Below, piece after piece: positions 36,070 through 45,495 of a stretch of 64,000 nt of DNA. Numbering within the stretch: position 1 is the stretch's first letter; every line of letters starts with the position of its first letter. The position numbers and the translations under genes are program-made. The DNA is from an uncultured Crocinitomix sp. GTDB taxonomy: Bacteria > Bacteroidota > Bacteroidia > Flavobacteriales_D > Crocinitomicaceae. The notes under the pieces are model-generated. The model was not told the origin of the DNA. It saw only the letters and a list, made by a program, of their open reading frames with translations, and did no database searches. The stretch covers positions 186,001 to 250,000 of the forward strand of contig CAKZON010000020.1 of the NCBI GenBank assembly GCA_937136425.1, given 5' to 3'.

Positions 36070-36642
36070 CTAACTTTCGGCAATTGTATAAACCTCTTCT
36101 TTGGGTAAAAGGTACTCGGCCTCTTTTATTCTACCATTCAAAATTAGGTCATGTATGTTTTTGCATTCTTGACCAATATCCTCAATTGAAACAATCCAGT
36201 CATTTACATATTTTTCAACTGCAATTCCGCTCAAACCAATTTGGATGGATTTATAATCCAATGCGTTGAGATGAATATCCTTTTCAGGATCCCATTGGAC
36301 ACGAATGGGTGAATTTACTAGAGCGGTTTTCCACGCCTCATTTGTGCCATGTATCTCTTTTACAAAATGAGATAAGCAAGCATTTTTGCAAGCCCAATCC
36401 CAACCTTTGCGTTTAATTTTAATGGCTAACACATGTTCTTGATCCTTTTTAGTAGACCAGCCACTGCGATACATCATCCATAAAAATGAAGGTTTAATCC
36501 AGGTCATTCGTTCCATTTTAAACGGAGCTACAAATTTTTGATTTTGTACTGCAGTTATAGCAATTGCTTTAGAATAGGCTTGATACACCGTTATTGTATG
36601 CTCATCAAATACTGCACGAATAGTCTGTTTATTCGAATTCAT
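36070..36642 (-). CDS. DUF4291 protein
   Basis: 190 aa, cytoplasmic. DUF4291 hallmarks are complete: IRAVFDEHTITVYQAYSKAI, FVAPFKMERMTWIKPSFLWM, then MMYRSGWSTKKDQEHVLAIKI. The conserved Tyr, Arg/Met/Trp and Lys residues suggest an enzyme, but no activity is established to my knowledge. Last gene of the ADP-ribose operon, six bases after the phosphoesterase gene, which suggests a link with nucleotide or NAD chemistry. Convergent with the paralogous pair. Confidence 0.85.
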   Translation of the reverse strand: MNSNKQTIRAVFDEHTITVYQAYSKAIAITAVQNQKFVAPFKMERMTWIKPSFLWMMYRSGWSTKKDQEHVLAIKIKRKGWDWACKNACLSHFVKEIHGTNEAWKTALVNSPIRVQWDPEKDIHLNALDYKSIQIGLSGIAVEKYVNDWIVSIEDIGQECKNIHDLILNGRIKEAEYLLPKEEVYTIAES

Positions 36643-36648
36643 TTTTAC

Positions 36649-37377
36649 TTATTTATTTCGACCTATTTCTTTTGGATAAAGCTCCATTACAGGATCGCTT
36701 TGCCAAAATTCTTTTGTGTCTATATCCAAGGCAGATAATTTTCCTTTAAATGCTGCTCCAGTGTCCAAATTCCAAATGTTTGCGCGATTCCAAGGGTGAT
36801 CAATTCCCCAACCTGTTGTTGGCGTATGACCAATAAAAATTTCTGAAAATAGTTTTAACCGTCCAGGATATGAATCCTCCTCTTTCTCTACTCTTCCATG
36901 TATGGCAACAGCCATTTCCCAAAGCGTGCGATCCCAGCCATAATTAGAAGCATAATGTTCTTTTTCTGGTCCGTGCATAGACGTGTACCCGGCATGAATA
37001 AACAACCTATTTTTATCATCAACATAATAGTTTTTCATTTTCATAAAAAAACCAATATGTTCATCTTTTTGATTGTCAGTATGTCCTGCATAACTCTCAA
37101 TGGTTTCTTTACCGCCATGCTTTAACCAAATGTTATTCTCAGTTCCTCTTGTTAACCAATCATAACACCAAGCATCATGATTACCATAAATGAAATGGCA
37201 GTTTTGCTGATATGAAAGTTCAATTAAAAAATCAATCAACTGTGCTGATTCACTCCAACCATCCACATAATCGCCCATAAATATAAGCTCATCCTGAGCG
37301 GTAACATTTGCACGTTCTAAAACTTGTTTAAGTCCTTTTAATCCTCCGTGTATGTCTCCTATTGCTATTGTTCTCAT
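36649..37377 (-). CDS. Calcineurin-like metallophosphoesterase (PPP/Ap4A-hydrolase-like)
   Basis: 242 aa. All metal-site motifs are present: GDIHGGLKGL, GDYVDGW, IYGNHDAW, and FIHAGYTS and GHTPTTGW further on, as in bacterial PPP-type protein phosphatases and symmetrical diadenosine tetraphosphatases. No signal peptide. In this operon a role on ADP-ribose phosphates, cyclic phosphates or nucleotides is as likely as protein dephosphorylation. 46 bases after the oxygenase gene, the largest gap of the operon. Confidence 0.88.
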   Translation of the reverse strand: MRTIAIGDIHGGLKGLKQVLERANVTAQDELIFMGDYVDGWSESAQLIDFLIELSYQQNCHFIYGNHDAWCYDWLTRGTENNIWLKHGGKETIESYAGHTDNQKDEHIGFFMKMKNYYVDDKNRLFIHAGYTSMHGPEKEHYASNYGWDRTLWEMAVAIHGRVEKEEDSYPGRLKLFSEIFIGHTPTTGWGIDHPWNRANIWNLDTGAAFKGKLSALDIDTKEFWQSDPVMELYPKEIGRNK

Positions 37378-37423
37378 TGTTGTAATTAATTAGACTTCTA
37401 CATAATAAAAAGCCTGCCTAAAT

Positions 37424-37987
37424 TTAAGCATCTAAATCATTTGATGTAACTCGAAACATTACATCCGTTCTTAAAACGTACTTTGTTCCTTTCTCTAAAC
37501 TCTTTCCCTCATGGCGTACATTATGATCAAATATTACGGCGCGTCCTTGCTTTGGCCGAATATCAAATTCACGCATAAAACCAGTTTCACCTCCCTTAAA
37601 ATCTTCGTTTAAATAAATAATCAAAGTCAATAAGCTCTGCTCGGATGCATTTCTTCTATGACTTCCGTCACGGTGCATTTTAAACCTTTCTCCGGGCACA
37701 TATTTATAATAACGAAACATCTCATTTAGCCCTATGGGCTTGGCATATGGGTAATCATCAATAAAAGGACATAGTTTGTTCCAAATTTCAGCTGCAAGTT
37801 CTTCATCCAACATTAAAACACGTTGATTATTTCGAACGGAAGCCATTACGGTTTGCTTACCATCAATATTGACTTTAGCAAATTCATAACCTATAGTTTC
37901 GCTTGCTTTAATATGGAACTTACATTCTTCCTTAGTTAAGAAATCATCTATAATCCAAACGTCTTCAGTAATTTTTTCTTTTTGCAT
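37424..37987 (-). CDS. 2-oxoglutarate/Fe(II)-dependent oxygenase (prolyl-4-hydroxylase-like)
   Basis: 187 aa. The double-stranded beta-helix core shows the iron triad His105-x-Asp107 (KMHRDGSH) and His159 (NVRHEG), and Lys169 or Arg173 for 2-oxoglutarate (GTKYVLRTDVMF). FKGGETGF is typical of the P4Hc family. It hydroxylates or demodifies an unknown substrate. Its place among ADP-ribose genes is noteworthy, as this family is also linked to nucleic-acid and protein repair. Confidence 0.88.
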   Translation of the reverse strand: MQKEKITEDVWIIDDFLTKEECKFHIKASETIGYEFAKVNIDGKQTVMASVRNNQRVLMLDEELAAEIWNKLCPFIDDYPYAKPIGLNEMFRYYKYVPGERFKMHRDGSHRRNASEQSLLTLIIYLNEDFKGGETGFMREFDIRPKQGRAVIFDHNVRHEGKSLEKGTKYVLRTDVMFRVTSNDLDA

Positions 37988-38010
37988 TAGTTAAAATTTA
38001 GATTGTTCAA

Positions 38011-38487
38011 TTAATCAAAATCATATACTATTGTTCCTATATTTTTTTCACTTAGCCTTGCCATTATGAGCGGCTCAATCTTAGACCACTTACCTCCTGC
38101 TAAACCGCAGCCAATTCTTGGCAGGTGCACACTTGCTCCAAGTTTTTCAGCCTCATTTTGTAATTTTTCTAAACACTTATCCACTGCATCATATCTTATT
38201 GGCGCACCGTTACTTCCTGTTTTCATCCCACGTTGCCCAATCATATTTGCAACATAAGTATCTGCCGAGACTTGGATAATTTGAATGTTTCCCAATTCAA
38301 AATCATTTTTAGATCTTTCTCTATGCCATTGGCGGTATTCCTTTTCCGGTTTGCTCCATCTTTTTGAAATTGCTAACACAAAACCTTTCCCCCATCCGCC
38401 AAGGTCATTACAAATATGCCCGATAATTTTTGGCCCTTTCGCCTGTGGAGATGTTGCATCTCCTTTTATGTATTCAATATTTTTCAT
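38011..38487 (-). CDS. Macro-domain protein, Poa1p/ALC1-like
   Basis: 158 aa from the ATG at 38487; the frame is open to a TTG at 38514. Macro fold: IEYIKGDATSPQ, then IIGHICNDLGGWGKGFVLAIS (the N-D-x-G-x-W-G-K-G phosphate loop), YVANMIGQRG and HLPRIGCGLAGGKWSKIEP. This subclass includes yeast Poa1p, which removes the 1''-phosphate from ADP-ribose 1''-phosphate made after tRNA 2'-phosphotransferase action, and ALC1-type glutamate-ADP-ribose hydrolases. The KptA gene two genes upstream fits the first role. Confidence 0.88.
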   Translation of the reverse strand: MKNIEYIKGDATSPQAKGPKIIGHICNDLGGWGKGFVLAISKRWSKPEKEYRQWHRERSKNDFELGNIQIIQVSADTYVANMIGQRGMKTGSNGAPIRYDAVDKCLEKLQNEAEKLGASVHLPRIGCGLAGGKWSKIEPLIMARLSEKNIGTIVYDFD

Positions 38488-38529
38488 CTTAAAAATAGTA
38501 TTCGCTTCAGTCAATGTTTAAATGAAACA

Positions 38530-39162
38530 TTATAAATCATCCACCCCTACAAGTTCATACTGCAAAATCAATTCTTTTACCGCTCTGGACACTACTTGAC
38601 ATTTATCTATCGTTTGAAACATTGCCGGTATATTATATAAATTATCCGTCACAAAAGGAACCCCTAGTACTTTGCTAAAATCCTTCTCAAAGCCTTTCTC
38701 TTCAACCACCCAAATAGATCCTTTAGAGCACGACATGGTATGAAAATCTTCTGTGCCTAAATGAATTTGACTGCCTATTGGTAATTTATATTCATTGGTT
38801 TTGATTTTCACCTCTGCGCTATACTTTAAACCATTGCCTCCATTCAAAACACTTCTGTATTCATACTCAGATATCGACACTAAATCATTTGAATCATTAC
38901 TCGCATTTTTTTCTGCAGTATGATGCGTGATATTACCTTTTAGAACGGTTATTGTAATTGGGTATCTATGTGTATGATATTGAACATCAAATGGATTTAG
39001 CTTTTTATCAGCAATAAAAACTCGCGTTAATTTTCCAAACTCAGTTCCCTTAATAACCAACGAGAAAATTCCTTCTGCATGAACATTTCTCATTGATAAA
39101 TTTAAACTTTCATTATTTGGTTGTTTAACAAGTTGATCTAGTTCTTTCAAAAATTTGTACAT
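38530..39162 (-). CDS. Cupin-like protein of the ADP-ribose operon
   Basis: 210 aa. A predicted beta-barrel with YHTHRYPITITVLKGNITHH (two His pairs) and a later HLGTEDFHTMSCSKGSIWVVEE resembling the two cupin motifs, so metal-binding is plausible. The C-terminal 60 residues are helical. I do not know a named family. 14 bases after the KptA gene, so likely in the same pathway. Confidence 0.65.
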   Translation of the reverse strand: MYKFLKELDQLVKQPNNESLNLSMRNVHAEGIFSLVIKGTEFGKLTRVFIADKKLNPFDVQYHTHRYPITITVLKGNITHHTAEKNASNDSNDLVSISEYEYRSVLNGGNGLKYSAEVKIKTNEYKLPIGSQIHLGTEDFHTMSCSKGSIWVVEEKGFEKDFSKVLGVPFVTDNLYNIPAMFQTIDKCQVVSRAVKELILQYELVGVDDL

Positions 39163-39176
39163 ACCCTTTAGTTTTA

Positions 39177-39710
39177 TTATTCAATAAATTTGGGAGGAAC
39201 GTTTTCAGTTAACCACACGCCATTTTCAGATTTATAAAAATTAAATCCTTGTTCATGCATTAGCTTGGCTGAAACTTTCAATATAACAGGTTTACCGCGT
39301 CTTGATCCAACTGATATTGCCGTATCTTTTGTTTCACTTAAATGCACATGATGTCGAGTTCCTTTTATCAGTCCTTTTTCACGAATTGATGCCATAAACT
39401 TATTCACCGTTCCGTGATATAGCGTGTGCGGCGGTTCAATTACTTTGAGGTTTAGGTTCACCTCAACAGAATGACCTTGGTTAGCACAAATTTTAGTTTT
39501 ATCCGCATTGAAGCGATATCTTTTCTTGTCATTAGTCTCAACCAAATGGGTCAATCGTTCCATATCCATTTGAATCTGTTTCCTGTTCAATCCTTTTATC
39601 AATTCATCAACGGATACCCATCCGTTTTCATCTAGTTCTATATTTAGCACCTTTGGATTATGTCTGAGTGCAAGACTCATTAATTTACCAATGCTTTTAT
39701 CTGTTCTCAT
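39177..39710 (-). CDS. kptA: RNA 2'-phosphotransferase, KptA/Tpt1 family
   Basis: 177 aa. The N-terminal winged helix (LMSLALRHNPKVLNIELDENGWVSVDELI) and C-terminal ADP-ribosyltransferase-like fold (LYHGTVNKFMASIREKGL, RHHVHLSETKDTAISVGSRRGKPVILKV) are complete. Known reaction: NAD-dependent removal of a 2'-phosphate from RNA, giving ADP-ribose 1'',2''-cyclic phosphate; bacterial members can also ADP-ribosylate 5'-phosphate ends. Arg and His of RHHVHLS are the catalytic pair. Its partner could be the Poa1-like macro protein downstream. Confidence 0.93.
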   Translation of the reverse strand: MRTDKSIGKLMSLALRHNPKVLNIELDENGWVSVDELIKGLNRKQIQMDMERLTHLVETNDKKRYRFNADKTKICANQGHSVEVNLNLKVIEPPHTLYHGTVNKFMASIREKGLIKGTRHHVHLSETKDTAISVGSRRGKPVILKVSAKLMHEQGFNFYKSENGVWLTENVPPKFIE

Positions 39711-39741
39711 TTTAATTTTTTTAATCGCTAGTGATTCGTTA

Positions 39742-40266
39742 CTAGCTTATTTCATTCGCGGATGATATAGCCTCATAAATTATGAGGTTTTCAACATCAT
39801 AACACACGAAAATTATTTCTTCTATTTCATTTTTACTGGGATAATTCATCACAGTACTGATTGCGATTTCGCAAGCCTCCTTTTTTGGAAACTTATAAAT
39901 ACCTGTACTAATATTTGGAAATGCAACTGTTTTAATTTGGTTTGCAATGCATAAATCCAAGACAGACGTATAACATGAAGCAAGCAACTCTCTCACATTA
40001 CCTTTTCCATTGTTCCAAACGGGGCCAACTGTATGAATTACAAAATTAGCATTGAGGTTTCCTGCACTTGTAATAACAGCATTACCAGTTTTACAACCTC
40101 CTTGTTTTGCCCTTATTGCCATGCAATCATCCAATAATTGAGATCCAGCTTTGCGGTGAATTGCACCATCTACACCTCCACCACCTAGCAAAGATGAATT
40201 TGCTGCATTTACAATTGCATCAACCTTTACTTGTGTTATGTCTCCAGATTGGATTTTAATTTTCAT
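39742..40266 (-). CDS. MacroD-type macro-domain ADP-ribosyl hydrolase
   Basis: 174 aa. MacroD/YmdB signatures: [43 protein letters not shown] and [13 protein letters not shown]. Such proteins release ADP-ribose from Asp/Glu side chains and deacetylate O-acetyl-ADP-ribose. The catalytic loop [14 protein letters not shown] is intact. Located in the ADP-ribose operon between KptA and a second macro domain. Confidence 0.93.
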
Positions 40267-40303
40267 GTTTTTAGTATCAAGTTCAACCTCTAGTCACAAA
40301 CAT

Positions 40304-40915
40304 TCATTCATTTATGCGGCCTTGGGGGTTAATATTCCAATGGTATTTTTGCGCTTCAGCAAAATTTTTAAAATTCATTTTTTCACCTTTTTCAATTTCT
40401 ACAAATGCATTATACATCTGCCTTGCGGAAACAATTGGCGACATTTTACCAACTCCAGTACAAAATCCAGAAATGGCAACAGTACTTATTTCATCATTCT
40501 TCTGTGCAACAATCATTGTCGCTTTCATTGCGAGATAAGCATTTATCGAAGTATCAATATTGAAACTCATTGGTACCCTCATAGTTGGTGAAACAATAAG
40601 AAATGGAATTAAACCATCTCCTGTTTTCATCACCAAAGATTTTCCAATGAGTAGTTCCCCTTCTGGTAAGTCTTTAATTCTTTCCTGCAATTCACTTTGC
40701 AACTCCCAACCTAGTCTTTGTGAAATAGCATAATCAACACCACCGTCCATAAAGCCAAATGAATTGGCTGGGCTCACAATTGCGTCACACTTTAGCTTAG
40801 TTATATCAGCATGCAGAATGGTTACATTTTCTTCATTTTGAAAAAACAGCTTCCAAGCATCAATCATTCTAGGATCAATATCTGCTAATACATATTTCAT
40901 AACCTTATTATCCAT
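40304..40915 (-). CDS. Macro-domain protein of a divergent subclass
   Basis: 203 aa. The ADP-ribose pocket is indicated by ILHADITKLKCDAIVSPANS followed by FGFMDGGVDYAISQRLG and a distal AISGFCTGVGKMSP. This loop form (FGFMDGGVD) is that of the phage-tail-type or AF1521-distant macro group, not MacroD. An ATG at 40900 is an alternative start that would avoid the eight-base overlap with the upstream glycohydrolase gene. Role probably binding or hydrolysis of an ADP-ribose derivative. Confidence 0.82.
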   Translation of the reverse strand: MDNKVMKYVLADIDPRMIDAWKLFFQNEENVTILHADITKLKCDAIVSPANSFGFMDGGVDYAISQRLGWELQSELQERIKDLPEGELLIGKSLVMKTGDGLIPFLIVSPTMRVPMSFNIDTSINAYLAMKATMIVAQKNDEISTVAISGFCTGVGKMSPIVSARQMYNAFVEIEKGEKMNFKNFAEAQKYHWNINPQGRINE

Positions 40916-41858
40916 TTATTTTCTCACCAAATCGTTCAATCAAATTCTCTATTTCTTCAAACTTTGCTAATTGTGCTCTCCAAAAATCAAACTGATTATC
41001 TCTTCCAAAATACACTCCTGCTAATCCGCCAGTTATAGCGCCAGTTGTATCAGTATCTTCACCCAAATTAACCGCCCTTAACACAGCCTCATCATAAGTT
41101 TTGGACGAAAGTAGTGCCCAAAAGCTTGCCTCAAGTGAATGCAATACATAACCTGATCCACTTATTTCAGCCCGTTCCAACTCTCCAATATTTCCGTTTA
41201 ATACCCGTTTGAACAAATCAACCTCTGCCTTATTTATATCAAGTTCAACCAAATGTTTTATCACCGATTTTTGGATAATTTGCAAGGCTTCTAACTTATC
41301 AAACCCTTCAATCAACTTTATGGCATATTCTACATAAATAAAGCACGAAATGATTGACCTTACATGAGCATGCGTTATGGATGATACTGCCTTTACTTTT
41401 TCAAAACGAACATTGATGTCTGATTCGTTATATAAGTAAAAAGCCATTGGTAAAATACGCATCAAAGATCCATTACCATTACTCCACTCATTCATTCCTC
41501 CGCACAGTTCAGGTTTTGTACCCTTCTTTATTTCATGAATGGCTTGGCTTGTTGCCATTCCTATATCAAAGACAGAACCATGTGGCGTCCAATAACTATG
41601 ATACTTCCATTGCGCAAATTTTGCGGCAATATCCTCCAAATTATAACCATTACATAAACCCTCCATTAAACAAAAGGTTAATGAACTGTCGTCAGACCAA
41701 GTTCCTTTTGGTTGATGATAGGTACCATACTCCCGCATATTGGTAACAGGGTTTTTATCCAAATCTCGGCGGCTTGTAAATTCAACAGGAACACCAAGCG
41801 CATCTCCAACGGCTACGCCAAATATTCCTGCTACTATTTTTTCATTCAATTCACTCAT
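40908..41858 (-). CDS. ADP-ribosylglycohydrolase (DraG/ARH family)
   Basis: 316 aa, all-helical. Binuclear Mg/Mn site motifs: GVAVGDALGVPVEF, TWSDDSSLTFCLMEG and NLGEDTDTTGAITGGLAG, plus SNGNGSLMRILP. DraG releases ADP-ribose from arginine; ARH3-type members act on serine or on O-acetyl-ADP-ribose. The start overlaps the upstream stop as ATGA, so translation is coupled. Confidence 0.93.
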   Translation of the reverse strand: MSELNEKIVAGIFGVAVGDALGVPVEFTSRRDLDKNPVTNMREYGTYHQPKGTWSDDSSLTFCLMEGLCNGYNLEDIAAKFAQWKYHSYWTPHGSVFDIGMATSQAIHEIKKGTKPELCGGMNEWSNGNGSLMRILPMAFYLYNESDINVRFEKVKAVSSITHAHVRSIISCFIYVEYAIKLIEGFDKLEALQIIQKSVIKHLVELDINKAEVDLFKRVLNGNIGELERAEISGSGYVLHSLEASFWALLSSKTYDEAVLRAVNLGEDTDTTGAITGGLAGVYFGRDNQFDFWRAQLAKFEEIENLIERFGEKING

Positions 41859-42679
41859 CCTTCTAATTTTTTAAATGCCCGATAAACTCCTCGATCATTC
41901 CGATCTAACACTGCAAACACAATTGTATCAAAAACACCTTCATACTTTCCCTCTTGCTTTAGAAATTGTTTAAAGTAATTTGCAATATCCTCCGGGTTAT
42001 TTCTAAACACGCCACATCCCCAAGCTCCTAATATTAAATTTTCGCATCCTTTTTCAGCAAATAACCCCAACATTTTATCAATTCTTTGCAACATCACCTC
42101 TTCCACTCTTTTCATCTCTTTTGGTTTATTGCTCAAAATTGCTCCAATATTAACAGCAGGGCTCGTAACAATGTCCACCAAATAAGGATTCTCTAATAAG
42201 TCTCCATCATCATTTTTAAAAACTACTACATCTGGAGAATAGATCATATAATCCGAATACAAATAGGTTTTATATGCACGATTGTGCTTATACATTTCCT
42301 GAAATTGATCAATTGAAGGATATAACGAGGATGAACGCGCAATGCTTTCTTCTTGCGATTGCGCACCATTCATAAACCCTCCACCTGGATTTTTTGCAGA
42401 AGCAAAATTAAGTACACCTAATTTTTCAACTACTTGAACCCACGTTTTAGCAGCGTTCAATGTTGACTCATTCGTAACTATAATTTTAGTTTCATTGTTT
42501 TTATTCAACTCAACACGGTCTAATAAACCCGTTAACTGATCAGGATTATACAAAGTTGCGTTTGAAATTGAAGTTGCAACTTGATTGGCAACATTTACTT
42601 GTTTAGTATCTATTTCATAAAATCCTTTATCTAAAATTTGCAAGGTGTTATTTGCGATATTTATTCTTTCTTTTTTCAC
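41855..42679 (-). CDS. Microbial PARG-like protein (TIGR02452 family)
   Basis: 274 aa. A macro-like fold carrying the catalytic PARG signature GGG-x7-QEE (NPGGGFMNGAQSQEESIARS), with a preceding VLNFASAKNPGGG beta strand and a second conserved NLILGAWGCGVFRNNP. Known family members cleave ribose-ribose bonds in poly(ADP-ribose). The N-terminal 70 residues form the microbial-type helical cap. Overlaps the glycohydrolase by four bases. Confidence 0.92.
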   Translation of the reverse strand: MKKERINIANNTLQILDKGFYEIDTKQVNVANQVATSISNATLYNPDQLTGLLDRVELNKNNETKIIVTNESTLNAAKTWVQVVEKLGVLNFASAKNPGGGFMNGAQSQEESIARSSSLYPSIDQFQEMYKHNRAYKTYLYSDYMIYSPDVVVFKNDDGDLLENPYLVDIVTSPAVNIGAILSNKPKEMKRVEEVMLQRIDKMLGLFAEKGCENLILGAWGCGVFRNNPEDIANYFKQFLKQEGKYEGVFDTIVFAVLDRNDRGVYRAFKKLEG

Positions 42680-42690
42680 TATTTACATTT

Positions 42691-43176
42691 TTACTCTTCC
42701 CAAACGGCAAGGCATTTTTTATCTTGCCAAAACTTTTCTAAAGTCATTTTTGGGTTTCCAATTACTTTAATTGTTAGTGGGCTAAGGCGTACACTAATTT
42801 TATGCGATCGGCTACCAAAAGTGCCAATATCTACAACCTCTTTTCCTTCTAACTTTAATTCATGACGATCTAAATATTTCATTATCGCCGGAACTTGCAA
42901 ATCCACCCCACCAGTCAATTTTGCATGGGGGTTATCCAATTTCTTGGCTGTCGCAATTAGTTCCTTTAAATCATCTGGATTTTCATTAAAGTGGAATTTA
43001 TAACTCTCATAATACACACTTTCTAATGCATCCATTTGCGAAACAAACTCTCCTTCAATCATATAACCAATCATCCAATTTTCGTCATATTTTTTATCCC
43101 ATTCGCGTTGCCTTTTTTCCCTTTGCTTTTGGTTGCCAGCTTTGCCAATTTTTCTTTCTACAATTTTCCAACTCAT
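42691..43176 (-). CDS. Uncharacterised protein of the ADP-ribose operon
   Basis: 161 aa, no signal or membrane part. Begins MSWKIVERKIGKAGNQKQRE and has a long charged helix, a central segment YYESYKFHFNENPDDLKELI, a conserved-looking AKKLDNPHAKLTGGVDLQVP and a C-terminal VDIGTFGSRSHKISVRLSP and KFWQDKKCLAVWEE. One base separates it from the preceding gene. I recognise the sequence pattern as recurring in bacteria but know no function; association with erasers of ADP-ribose suggests a related enzyme or substrate adaptor. Confidence 0.7.
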   Translation of the reverse strand: MSWKIVERKIGKAGNQKQREKRQREWDKKYDENWMIGYMIEGEFVSQMDALESVYYESYKFHFNENPDDLKELIATAKKLDNPHAKLTGGVDLQVPAIMKYLDRHELKLEGKEVVDIGTFGSRSHKISVRLSPLTIKVIGNPKMTLEKFWQDKKCLAVWEE

Positions 43177-43177
43177 T

Positions 43178-43594
43178 CTATTCTGATTCTTCTTTTTTAA
43201 AAAATTGATCTAAAAGGGAATGAACACCTGGCTCAAACTTCTCTCCGAAAAAGACCTTTACTATTTCAATTTTTCCAATAATATTATCATTAAATGTATC
43301 CATTTCTGCTGCGGGCACCCACAACTCGTTATGGTTTTTGTCTCCTACATTTTCTACTTTAAATGTTGCAGCATACTCAGCATTTACATTAAATTTTGTT
43401 ACTGCTCCAACATAGCCCGAAAATTCATCCTTAGTATTCCAATCTAACGCTATTTTATTGGCATAAGCTTGATTTAATACGGGGTAAAAAATCGGTTGCC
43501 AATCTAACCTTGGAGGAAAAGCTTCAAAGTTTAATCCTTCAATCAGCATTAACTCTCCTTTACCAATTGGTCGATATAATGTTAGTGTTTTCAT
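43178..43594 (-). CDS. ADP-ribosylation/crystallin-J1-type small protein
   Basis: 138 aa. Pattern MKTLTLYRPIGKGELMLIEG, AFPPRLDWQPIFYPVLNQ, YANKIALDWNTKD and ELWVPAAEMDTFND matches the small family that databases label ADP-ribosylation/crystallin J1; the biochemical activity is not established. It sits between NADAR and the 161-aa protein in the operon, six bases after the former. Confidence 0.78.
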   Translation of the reverse strand: MKTLTLYRPIGKGELMLIEGLNFEAFPPRLDWQPIFYPVLNQAYANKIALDWNTKDEFSGYVGAVTKFNVNAEYAATFKVENVGDKNHNELWVPAAEMDTFNDNIIGKIEIVKVFFGEKFEPGVHSLLDQFFKKEESE

Positions 43595-43600
43595 TTTCTC

Positions 43601-44146
43601 TTATTTAATTCTGTCTCTGACTTCCATCAATGCGAAACCCAGTAAATTTTGTCCTCTCCACAACAAAGGATTTTCTGCATGCGGATTATTTTTCCACATT
43701 CCAATACCCCAAATTCTATCTCGTGGACTTGCCTCAACAATTGTTCTTTTTCCGGTTTTAATCAAATATTCTTTCAATTCGTCATGTTGTTTAAACTTAT
43801 GCAAATTACCATCCACTACAATTTGAAATTTATGATTATTCCATATTTCAGGATCAAAACTTGCAACTTTACGTCCTAAAGCTTTTGCCTCCATAGGTGA
43901 ATTAACAGTTAATACCTTTTCTGCAATAGTTTTGTCACCAAATAAAATTGCTTTTTGATACATCATCCAATGTTCAGCAGTTAGAAATACATTTCCGTCT
44001 ACTTCAAAAGATGACTTCCACCATTGGCTAAAGCATGATGCCGAAACCGACCCATCCTTAGTGGGCTGATGTCCCCAAAAGAAAAGATACTTTATTCTTT
44101 CTCCTTTTTGGAATTCTTCTTTTAATATTTCTAAACTGTATTTCAT
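43601..44146 (-). CDS. NADAR/YbiA-like protein, first gene of the ADP-ribose operon
   Basis: 181 aa from the ATG at 44146; the frame stays open further upstream but that part is promoter and operator. NADAR hallmarks: FLTAEHWMMYQKAILFGD, MEAKALGRKVASFDPEIW, then EASPRDRIWGIGMWKN and LWRGQNLLGFALMEVR. YbiA-type proteins hydrolyse the N-glycosidic bond in riboflavin intermediates; NADAR proteins in DNA-modification systems remove ADP-ribose from guanine. Leading gene; short 5' leader with overlapping operator. Confidence 0.9.
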   Translation of the reverse strand: MKYSLEILKEEFQKGERIKYLFFWGHQPTKDGSVSASCFSQWWKSSFEVDGNVFLTAEHWMMYQKAILFGDKTIAEKVLTVNSPMEAKALGRKVASFDPEIWNNHKFQIVVDGNLHKFKQHDELKEYLIKTGKRTIVEASPRDRIWGIGMWKNNPHAENPLLWRGQNLLGFALMEVRDRIK

Positions 44147-44153
44147 TTCTATA

Positions 44154-44172
44154 TTGTGTAATTTGGACACAA
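44154..44172. promoter_or_regulatory. Operator 1 of the ADP-ribose operon
   Basis: Perfect inverted repeat TTGTGT-N7-ACACAA, ending seven bases before the ATG at 44146. It overlaps the predicted -7 element and transcription start, so a bound protein would block initiation. Confidence 0.75.
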
Positions 44173-44201
44173 ATATATATGAACAAAACAGAACACCCAA
44201 A
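44170..44201 (-). promoter_or_regulatory. Predicted promoter of the ADP-ribose operon
   Basis: Minus-strand TTTG (44198-44201), 20-base spacer and TATATTTG (44170-44177) match the Bacteroidota consensus TTTG / TAnnTTTG exactly. Flanked by the two operators. Confidence 0.7.
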
Positions 44202-44206
44202 TTATT

Positions 44207-44225
44207 TTGTGTTTTTTTTACACAA
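44207..44225. promoter_or_regulatory. Operator 2 of the ADP-ribose operon
   Basis: TTGTGT, seven T, ACACAA: same arms and spacer length as operator 1, centred 53 bases further upstream (about five helical turns), just behind the -33 element. Confidence 0.72.
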
Positions 44226-44330: not shown

Positions 44331-44687
44331 ATGCGCACTTTAATTCTCAGCATTATTTTAATACTACCACTTGTAATAAGCAGCTGCAAAAAAGAGCCAG
44401 CTTTGTGCATGAAAGGTACTGTTATCGGTAAAATTCGATCAGGCGGAGGTGGGCTTGCCGTATCGCTTGACAAAAACTACAGTGGTGCAGTTAAATGGAA
44501 TGACGAAAAAAATGTAATAGAGCTGCTTAACATTCCTACAGAATTAAGAGCCTCTGGAGCAACATTTTACTTTTCATCTAGAAAAGCAACTGACAGCGAA
44601 CAAGGAATTATTACTGCAGACGGAGATGAATCAATTAAAACCGTTTTGTACGGAATGAAGTTTAGCACAACGGAATGTCCAAACTAA
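44331..44687 (+). CDS. Small lipoprotein
   Basis: 118 aa from the ATG at 44331; an earlier frame start at 44274 gives no signal peptide. MRTLILSIILILPLVISSCK has a lipobox with Cys at residue 19. The mature domain is a small beta-rich sequence (GTVIGKIRSGGGGLAVSLDK). Its last four bases overlap the end of the convergent NrtR-type gene. No known function and no obvious link to the ADP-ribose operon. Confidence 0.72.
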   Translation: MRTLILSIILILPLVISSCKKEPALCMKGTVIGKIRSGGGGLAVSLDKNYSGAVKWNDEKNVIELLNIPTELRASGATFYFSSRKATDSEQGIITADGDESIKTVLYGMKFSTTECPN

Positions 44688-45364
44688 ATATCGAAATTCA
44701 TTCCTTGCTTTTTTAAATCGAAATACTTTTTTTGATTGAAGCGAAATAAAGAACCAGGACGTCCTTTGCCTTGAGATACTTTCTCATCTAATTCCTCTAA
44801 AATATTAAGCTGCAAGAACTTTTTTTTGAAGTTACGGCGGTCGATTGACATTCCATAAACAGTTTCATATAACTTATGCAGCTCTGAAAAGGGAAATTTT
44901 TCACCCAAAAGTTCGAACCCAATAGGTTCGTATGAAATTTTACCTTTTAATCGCTCAATTGCCACATCCAAGATTGCATCATGATCAAACGCTAACTTTG
45001 GTAACTCGGCTACATTAAACCATTGGGCTTCTTCAGCATCCGTGTCTGCATAAAGCTCAAAATTACCTTGATTAACTAAGCCATAATAAGCCACTGTTAC
45101 TACTCTATTTCTAGGGTCGCGACCAGGTTTACCAAACGTATATAACTGCTCCAAATAATTAACATGAATACCTGTTTCTTCCTGTAGCTCTCGCTCAACG
45201 GCGTTTTCCAAAGATTCATTTTCTAAAACTAAACCTCCAGGAATAGCCCACTGTCCTTGAAATGGATCATATTTCCGTTTAATTAGCAAAACGGAAAGTC
45301 CGTGTTTAGAATCATAACCAAATACAACAGCATCAACACTTAAACGGATGGTAGGTTTACTCAT
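44684..45364 (-). CDS. NrtR-type Nudix/winged-helix transcriptional regulator
   Basis: 226 aa. An N-terminal Nudix domain with an exact Nudix box (G-x5-E-x7-RELQEETGI, in GLVLENESLENAVERELQEE) and a C-terminal winged helix (FPFSELHKLYETVYGMSIDR, then GKGRPGSLFRFN). Known NrtR proteins repress NAD-metabolism operons and are released by ADP-ribose; others of this fold regulate sugar genes. The intact box means it may also hydrolyse its ligand. It lies upstream of the ADP-ribose operon on the same strand, with one small gene between them, and its own 5' region has a related operator. Confidence 0.87.
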   Translation of the reverse strand: MSKPTIRLSVDAVVFGYDSKHGLSVLLIKRKYDPFQGQWAIPGGLVLENESLENAVERELQEETGIHVNYLEQLYTFGKPGRDPRNRVVTVAYYGLVNQGNFELYADTDAEEAQWFNVAELPKLAFDHDAILDVAIERLKGKISYEPIGFELLGEKFPFSELHKLYETVYGMSIDRRNFKKKFLQLNILEELDEKVSQGKGRPGSLFRFNQKKYFDLKKQGMNFDI

Positions 45365-45373
45365 AACTTCTTT

Positions 45374-45390
45374 TTGTGTATTCTATACAA
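45374..45390. promoter_or_regulatory. Candidate operator of the NrtR-type gene
   Basis: TTGTGTATTCTATACAA, an inverted repeat with one mismatch, located nine bases upstream of the start codon of the regulator. It resembles the operators at 44154 and 44207 in its TTGTGT half but is two bases shorter overall. Suggests autoregulation. Confidence 0.45.
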
Positions 45391-45495
45391 TAATAAGGAG
45401 AAAGTTTCAATGATTCAAGAATTGAATGCACCATTATATGATTTACTTGTGCCATCATGTATTTTAATTAAATTAGAAGAAAGTTAAACAGCTGC

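Follow-up and report, generated by a model that had tools for sequence, protein, structure and literature searches.

The window analysed here, a stretch of 64,000 nucleotides from an uncultured Crocinitomix sp., contains an operon of 13 same-strand genes (36070–44146, minus strand, with gaps of at most 46 bp in the ORF table), many of which encode proteins with domains linked to ADP-ribose. The first gene encodes a NADAR domain protein (43601–44146; Pfam NADAR, 1.9e-56), whose start was placed at the ATG at 44146; an alternative TTG start in the ORF list, at 44200, would cross the operator described below. It is followed by proteins of 138 and 161 residues with no Pfam or NCBIfam match (43178–43594 and 42691–43176), a microbial-type PARG catalytic domain protein (41855–42679; Pfam 1.6e-48), an ADP-ribosylglycohydrolase (40908–41858; Pfam 2.4e-71), a Macro-like domain protein (40304–40915; Pfam 2.9e-08), a Macro domain protein (39742–40266; Pfam 2.5e-46), the RNA 2'-phosphotransferase Tpt1/KptA (39177–39710; Pfam 1.1e-48), a 210-residue protein with no Pfam or NCBIfam match (38530–39162), a weak Macro domain protein (38011–38514; Pfam 8e-05, at 23 bits just above the cut-off of 22), a 2OG-Fe(II) oxygenase (37424–37987; Pfam 1e-12), a calcineurin-like phosphoesterase (36649–37377; Pfam 2e-15) and, as the final gene of the run, a DUF4291 protein (36070–36642; Pfam 7.3e-74). 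No nuclease effector was found among the Pfam domains identified in the operon. Upstream lie a small plus-strand gene of no family, lipoprotein-like by eye (44331–44687), and nrtR (44684–45364, minus strand), which encodes a predicted repressor.

Two exact copies of the palindrome TTGTGT-N7-ACACAA precede the operon, the proximal operator 1 at 44154–44172 and the distal operator 2 at 44207–44225, neither of which is assigned to a strand. Bacteroidota sigma-A promoters have a TTG -33 box about 19–21 bp upstream of a TAnnTTTG -7 box. A promoter of this type lies between the operators on the minus strand, with a -33 element TTTG at 44201–44198, 20 bp of spacer and a -7 element TATATTTG at 44177–44170 that agrees with the consensus TAnnTTTG (PMC9723704) and whose final three bases are the first three bases of operator 1. 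These elements and the operator distance of 53 bp, centre to centre, are as the sequence-only reading had described them. Operator 2 lies 5 bp upstream of the -33 TTTG. Taking the flavobacterial -7 box to span -12 to -5, as reported in PMC9723704, the transcription start is predicted by hand at ~44165, relative to which operator 1 extends from -7 to +12 (centre +3), overlapping the 3 terminal bases of the -7 box and spanning the start site, and operator 2 from -60 to -42 (centre about -51).

The exact motif was found twice in the window against 0.04 expected, a count reached in none of 100 shuffles. Genome-wide it occurs at three places in 6,094,286 bases (reversed-pattern control, one), where roughly 4 would be expected by chance (0.04 per 64 kb, scaled by hand), while four random sites would give about 2e-4 pairs within 100 bp (by hand). 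A single exact motif is no rarer than chance in this genome; it is the pair and its placement that count. In this genome scan, which the sequence-only reading had named as a possible refutation, the 53-bp pair and the placement of the third copy, before nadV, are above chance level, and the lone motif is not. A chance origin was rejected for the pair and retained for exact single copies inside genes. The third exact copy stops 24 bp short of the nadV ATG, with TATATTTG again entering the operator and, by eye, no partner at 53 bp. The nadV gene was called from NCBIfam PRK09198 (9.2e-167) and the Pfam domains NAPRTase and NAMPT_N (nicotinamide phosphoribosyltransferase-like), and is followed by a PRPP-synthetase-like gene (prs; TIGR01251, 99.5 bits, below the cut-off of 113). 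The wider form of the motif, TTGYGTN7ACRCAA, occurs at five places in the genome, and the two extra sites, both inside ORFs, are probably due to chance. Palindromes upstream of NAD genes, a feature of NrtR regulation, were found at nadV in this genome and at prs/nadV loci in relatives.

An NrtR orthologue with 91–100% identity is present in three of nine genomes of the genus, all three of which carry the 53-bp pair. All 19 bases of operator 1 are identical in two congeneric genomes, G060 and G097; the arms of operator 2 are identical in G097 and have one mismatch in G060, where operator 1 is unchanged and the stretch between the operators has diverged. In G097, too, the small plus-strand gene lies between nrtR and the operon. 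No pair was found in the other six genomes, which were scanned for exact sites only, and one of them has a single site. A weak operator-like site with two mismatches, again without strand, lies at 45374–45392, 9 bp upstream of the nrtR ATG. It was found in three congeneric genomes (including G097 and G060), and several other NrtR loci have a better operator-like site near the same place upstream of nrtR. Autoregulation of nrtR is possible. G060 has a second pair, also at 53 bp, that precedes genes for an SPFH protein (Band_7, 7.9e-16) and then a NAD-kinase-like protein (L037, 6358–8297, minus strand). The latter scored far below the cut-offs of the NCBIfam NAD kinase models, has no Pfam family and had no match in the window's genome in a search run without a positive control. 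Genes of the SPFH and NAD-kinase-like types also adjoin NrtR or an operator pair in other Bacteroidota and in Pseudoalteromonas.

To determine how widely the pair recurs, 84,980 species were scanned for near-exact sites lying, two together, 38–68 bp from each other. A total of 66 stretches were obtained, 32 assigned to Bacteroidota by record title (three of them from the window's own genus) and 34 not. The spacing was 51–54 bp in 25 of the Bacteroidota stretches and 38, 38, 43, 56, 62, 62 and 63 bp in the other seven. Matches to 18 query proteins, comprising NrtR, prs, nadV, SPFH, the NAD-kinase-like protein and operon genes, were identified in 28 of the 32 Bacteroidota stretches versus three of the 34 others, and those three belong to Enterovibrio (two) and Pseudoalteromonas (one). 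A search of 394 genomes for more gammaproteobacterial pairs recovered only the known pair. Pairs at 57–60 bp in Actinomycetota and Gaiella MAGs (JACCRW, JANDLU) matched none of the query proteins, have a core rich in GC and occur many times in each genome; they were set aside as another repeat family. Repeats of high GC content around CTTGTGTTG...CAACACAAG, mostly 57–60 bp apart, were seen in many copies in two Actinomycetota MAGs (L054, L055, L061, L065, L072–L075 and others).

A protein-led set comprised 52 NrtR loci of at least 52% identity, taken from the best 30 matches of each search, a limit that holds for every count in this paragraph made on these loci. Exact TTGYGTN7ACRCAA sites were present in 40 of the 52 loci (68 sites in all), versus at most 13 sites for any of 59 other arm orders, the next best of which (13, 12 and 12 sites) are near-variants that shift the Y only. 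In a set of 29 NrtR-homologue loci, 24 sites matched TTGTGTN7ACACAA with at most one mismatch, versus 0, 0, 1, 1 and 4 for five control palindromes. Two sites 51–55 bp apart were found in 29 loci, and partners within 120 bp of an exact site lay 51–55 bp away in 49 of 53 counts, in which a pair of two exact sites is counted twice. No exact site was found in 12 loci and no 51–55 bp pair in the flanks covered for 23. The Y and R letters had been read off the first 19 loci, and the other 33 were recounted separately: exact sites occur in 27 of these (48 sites, with no other arm order above 10) and a 51–55 bp pair in 22, the figures for the 19 refinement loci being 13 and seven. Twelve loci of 43–50% identity, counted apart from the 52, contained no exact site and one 53-bp pair of near sites, and six of the 12 adjoin prs, nadV, NADAR or KptA. 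As judged from these loci, the operator code belongs to one NrtR group and not to every NAD-linked NrtR in the phylum. The 12 homologues, together with eight congeneric ones, are not all sugar-type paralogues: with six of the 12 next to NAD/ADP-ribose genes, some are NAD-linked NrtR proteins with an impaired Nudix box. A second NAD-linked Bacteroidota NrtR type with an impaired box and no exact site was observed at L137, L138, L139, L140, L179 and L180.

The relation between operators and promoter was assessed for pairs of 50–56 bp only, oriented by the nearest downstream ORF; there were 54 distinct pairs, four of which could not be oriented and were dropped, leaving 50. TAnnTTTG enters the proximal operator in 42 of the 50 (wrong strand, three), and in 39 it is accompanied by a -33 TTG 17–23 bp upstream (wrong strand, none). 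The proposed bracketing of the operon promoter by the operators is supported, and it recurs in many Bacteroidota. Operator 2 is separated from the TTG by 6 bp in 30 and by 5 bp in seven of the 39 pairs. Operator spacing in these 39 follows the length of the -33/-7 spacer (r 0.72): 52 bp goes with a 19-bp spacer in 14 of 17 pairs, 53 bp with 20 in seven of nine, and 54 bp with 21 in nine of nine. Looser rules, under which the TTG could lie in a broader window and pairs were not filtered by orientation, gave a permutation p of 0.006 for 42 pairs, one of them with a -33 match, at 15 bp, that is probably false. Related genomes are not independent, and four pairs from the window's genus are among those counted; after collapse to 25 family-by-spacing combinations rho was 0.41 (p 0.04), with p 0.19 in a variance test. 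Promoters are also bracketed by the three gammaproteobacterial pairs, at 57–58 bp or about 5.5 turns. The pairs of Enterovibrio and Pseudoalteromonas adjoin NrtR and prs-nadV, and by eye their bracketed promoter is of the TTGATC / TAAATT or TACATT type. As far as can be judged from three loci, two of which belong to the same genus, these pairs favour the bracket and count against phase as a strict rule.

The reading that we consider probable is that adjacent NrtR dimers on both operators clamp the promoter and are released by ADP-ribose, with nadV under the same control. We infer binding and repression from the sites, the promoter, their spacing and recurrence, and the co-occurrence with NrtR, all of which were observed; the neighbouring Nudix/winged-helix NrtR is the likely binder, as the sequence-only reading had supposed. 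A dimer on operator 1 would mask the predicted start at ~44165 as well as the last bases of the -7 box, and one on operator 2 would be placed immediately upstream of the -33 element. In combination the two would clamp the promoter, exclude RNA polymerase and keep the 13-gene ADP-ribose operon off. If free ADP-ribose rises, it would bind the Nudix domain and the dimers would leave, allowing production of enzymes that remove and recycle ADP-ribose, and through the operator at the -7 box upstream of nadV the same NrtR would also control NAD salvage by nadV and the PRPP-synthetase-like gene. A BtAraR dimer is reported to cover 25 bp (PMC4666351). With footprints of that size about 28 bp would be free between the dimers (by hand), a gap in which RNA polymerase would not fit and across which the dimers could touch only if the DNA bent. 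The simplest reading is that the core promoter is clamped at both ends. The role of ADP-ribose as inducer is taken by analogy from characterised NrtR proteins, DNA binding of SoNrtR and MsNrtR being reportedly lowered by it, and would fit the content of the operon. It is put forward by analogy because the window protein missed NF050029, the NCBIfam equivalog model for the ADP-ribose-responsive repressor, by far (147.6 bits against a cut-off of 400), and because BtAraR is its closest solved relative and SoNrtR only the third; the Corynebacterium NrtR is reported to respond to NAD instead. The lower-identity NAD-linked loci without the motif make us slightly less sure of the clamp as a whole.

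A different use of the same two sites had been favoured by the sequence-only reading, namely that the dimers, in helical register five turns apart, repress by mutual contact through bent or looped DNA. Nearly all NrtR-linked Bacteroidota pairs are indeed 51–55 bp apart (4.9–5.2 turns), and among the few other pairs those at 43–44 and 62–63 bp are near four and six turns. However, the spacing tracks the -33/-7 spacer in the 39 pairs, albeit more weakly after the family collapse, contact across the ~28 bp left between two 25-bp footprints would need sharp bending, and the gammaproteobacterial pairs lie at about 5.5 turns. Additional pairs that do not fit are one of Paludibacteraceae at 56 bp and two of Bacteroidota at 38 bp, although one of the latter is beside a 37% homologue and the other has no match, so that both are perhaps outside the present NrtR group. 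The argument from phase and five-turn spacing to looping or cooperativity is therefore unsupported and we regard looping as unlikely, while the range of 51–55 bp is too narrow to dismiss phase as an extra constraint.

It is very unlikely that the palindrome belongs to some other regulator, for instance a Crp/Fnr-like one, and is near nrtR by coincidence. In favour of such a regulator we count that TTGTGT-N7-ACACAA is short and, we presume, loosely resembles other dyad sites. Against it, 40 of the 52 NrtR loci, and 27 of the 33 held out from refinement (best 30 matches of each search), have exact sites, and within the genus, whose other six genomes were scanned for exact sites, pairs of exact or near-exact sites were seen only in genomes with an NrtR orthologue. 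In a family scan of 200 genomes, which gave 29 single-site loci, four of the six sites outside ORFs adjoin NrtR, nadV, NADAR or prs (two of the four are from the window's genus), versus one of the 23 inside ORFs. The palindrome described for MsNrtR likewise has the form arm-N7-arm. Finally, it is extremely improbable that each operator serves a promoter of its own, operator 1 that of the NADAR operon and operator 2 that of the divergent plus-strand gene at 44331–44687, for although plus-strand TATTTTGT runs into operator 2 (by eye) and fits a minor TAnnTTGY class described in PMC9723704, G060 has no room for that gene between nrtR and the operon yet keeps the pair, and TAnnTTTG occurred on the wrong strand in only three of the 50 pairs, in none of them together with a -33 TTG.

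The predicted regulator itself has an N-terminal Nudix domain (Pfam NUDIX, 8.7e-24) and a C-terminal NrtR winged helix (NrtR_WHD, 9.2e-23), both above the Pfam cut-offs, as well as a match to AraR_C (5.8e-17), and on these scores is best filed under the NrtR domain family and not under the equivalog NF050029. Its Nudix box, scored at seven positions (G-x5-E-x7-R-E-x2-E-E-x-G), is complete, as is that of 41 of 55 NrtR loci (the 52 loci from the best 30 matches of each protein search plus three of the genus). In the same 55, the remaining 14 deviate solely at the last G and the catalytic residues are kept throughout. An intact box was found in none of the 20 lower-identity homologues and none of the three gammaproteobacterial NrtR proteins. 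Six of those 20 are NAD-linked by neighbourhood, so that an intact box marks the present NrtR group and not all NAD-linked NrtR proteins. NuhA, which may belong to the NrtR family, is reported to have both an intact Nudix motif and activity as an ADP-ribose pyrophosphatase. The NrtR proteins in the literature consulted mostly have an impaired box, and those assayed are reported as inactive. Repair of the box reportedly restored activity in one NrtR and not in another, and an intact box alone is thus no proof of activity. A tentative possibility, which we would not favour at present, is that proteins of this group combine a repressor with a working ADP-ribose pyrophosphatase, such that NrtR, once ADP-ribose had opened its two-dimer clamp, would itself destroy that inducer.

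Comparison with known systems places both the regulator family and the principle among what is already established. Like the locus described here, the NrtR systems of Shewanella, Mycobacterium and Streptococcus have a Nudix and winged-helix repressor with NAD gene targets, a palindrome reported as arm-N7-arm (GTTTTCGA-N7-TCGAAAAC in Mycobacterium) and, by analogy, ADP-ribose as the likely inducer. They differ from it in the sequence of the arms, and in having neither two operators that bracket a promoter nor a 13-gene ADP-ribose operon as target, and in the literature consulted their Nudix boxes are mostly impaired. The gal and deo systems of E. coli have two operators for one promoter, with looping over larger distances. 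In contrast, the operators here directly adjoin the elements of the core promoter. Among solved structures the nearest relatives are, in order, BtAraR (5bs6, 2.2e-52), the Nudix protein 2fml of unknown role, and 3gz5/3gz6, of which 3gz6 is the Shewanella NrtR–DNA complex. BtAraR represents the AraR/XylR branch of Bacteroides, from the same phylum, which differs in its sugar ligand, sugar genes and impaired Nudix box; the window NrtR has an intact box, and its three intergenic exact sites are at ADP-ribose/NAD genes and not at sugar utilisation operons. Tandem operators at the araM operon of that branch are reported to be 3 bp or 42 nt apart, and their description as available to us contains no promoter bracket. 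An NrtR/AraR-like fragment with one in-frame TAG was also observed at a contig end (L006 1–2053, G000:C15), immediately ahead of a gene for glucose-6-phosphate dehydrogenase (Pfam G6PD_C, G6PD_N).

Section 3.8 of PMC9503650 predicts a circuit similar to the one proposed here, directed against viral ADP-ribosylation, for operons centred on ADP-ribosylglycohydrolase with Nudix or WYL repressors. Those operons, described from actinobacteria, planctomycetes and proteobacteria among other lineages, resemble the present one in having ADP-ribosylglycohydrolase with an NrtR-type repressor and sometimes a calcineurin-like phosphatase, Macro or NADAR, and section 3.8 describes them without operators. 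The operon here differs by the addition of KptA, PARG and DUF4291 and by having no nuclease effector among its identified domains. None of the titles and abstracts surveyed described NrtR operators in pairs on either side of a Bacteroidota promoter; PMC4666351 came nearest, and prior publication of the motif is possible. What appears to be new is the recurring two-operator clamp, the link to an ADP-ribose operon and the intact Nudix box.

The operator code TTGYGT-N7-ACRCAA, often present in two copies around a promoter, would make the regulons of one Bacteroidota NrtR group readable from sequence. It ties a large operon for the reversal of ADP-ribosylation to NAD salvage under one predicted sensor, and it sets apart two testable ideas, promoter clamping and phase-dependent looping. 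In addition, the conserved catalytic box raises the question of whether the sensor ends its own signal. If it does, a pulse of ADP-ribosylation, for example from a phage or a toxin, would trigger ADP-ribose clean-up and NAD salvage in a burst that sets its own duration.
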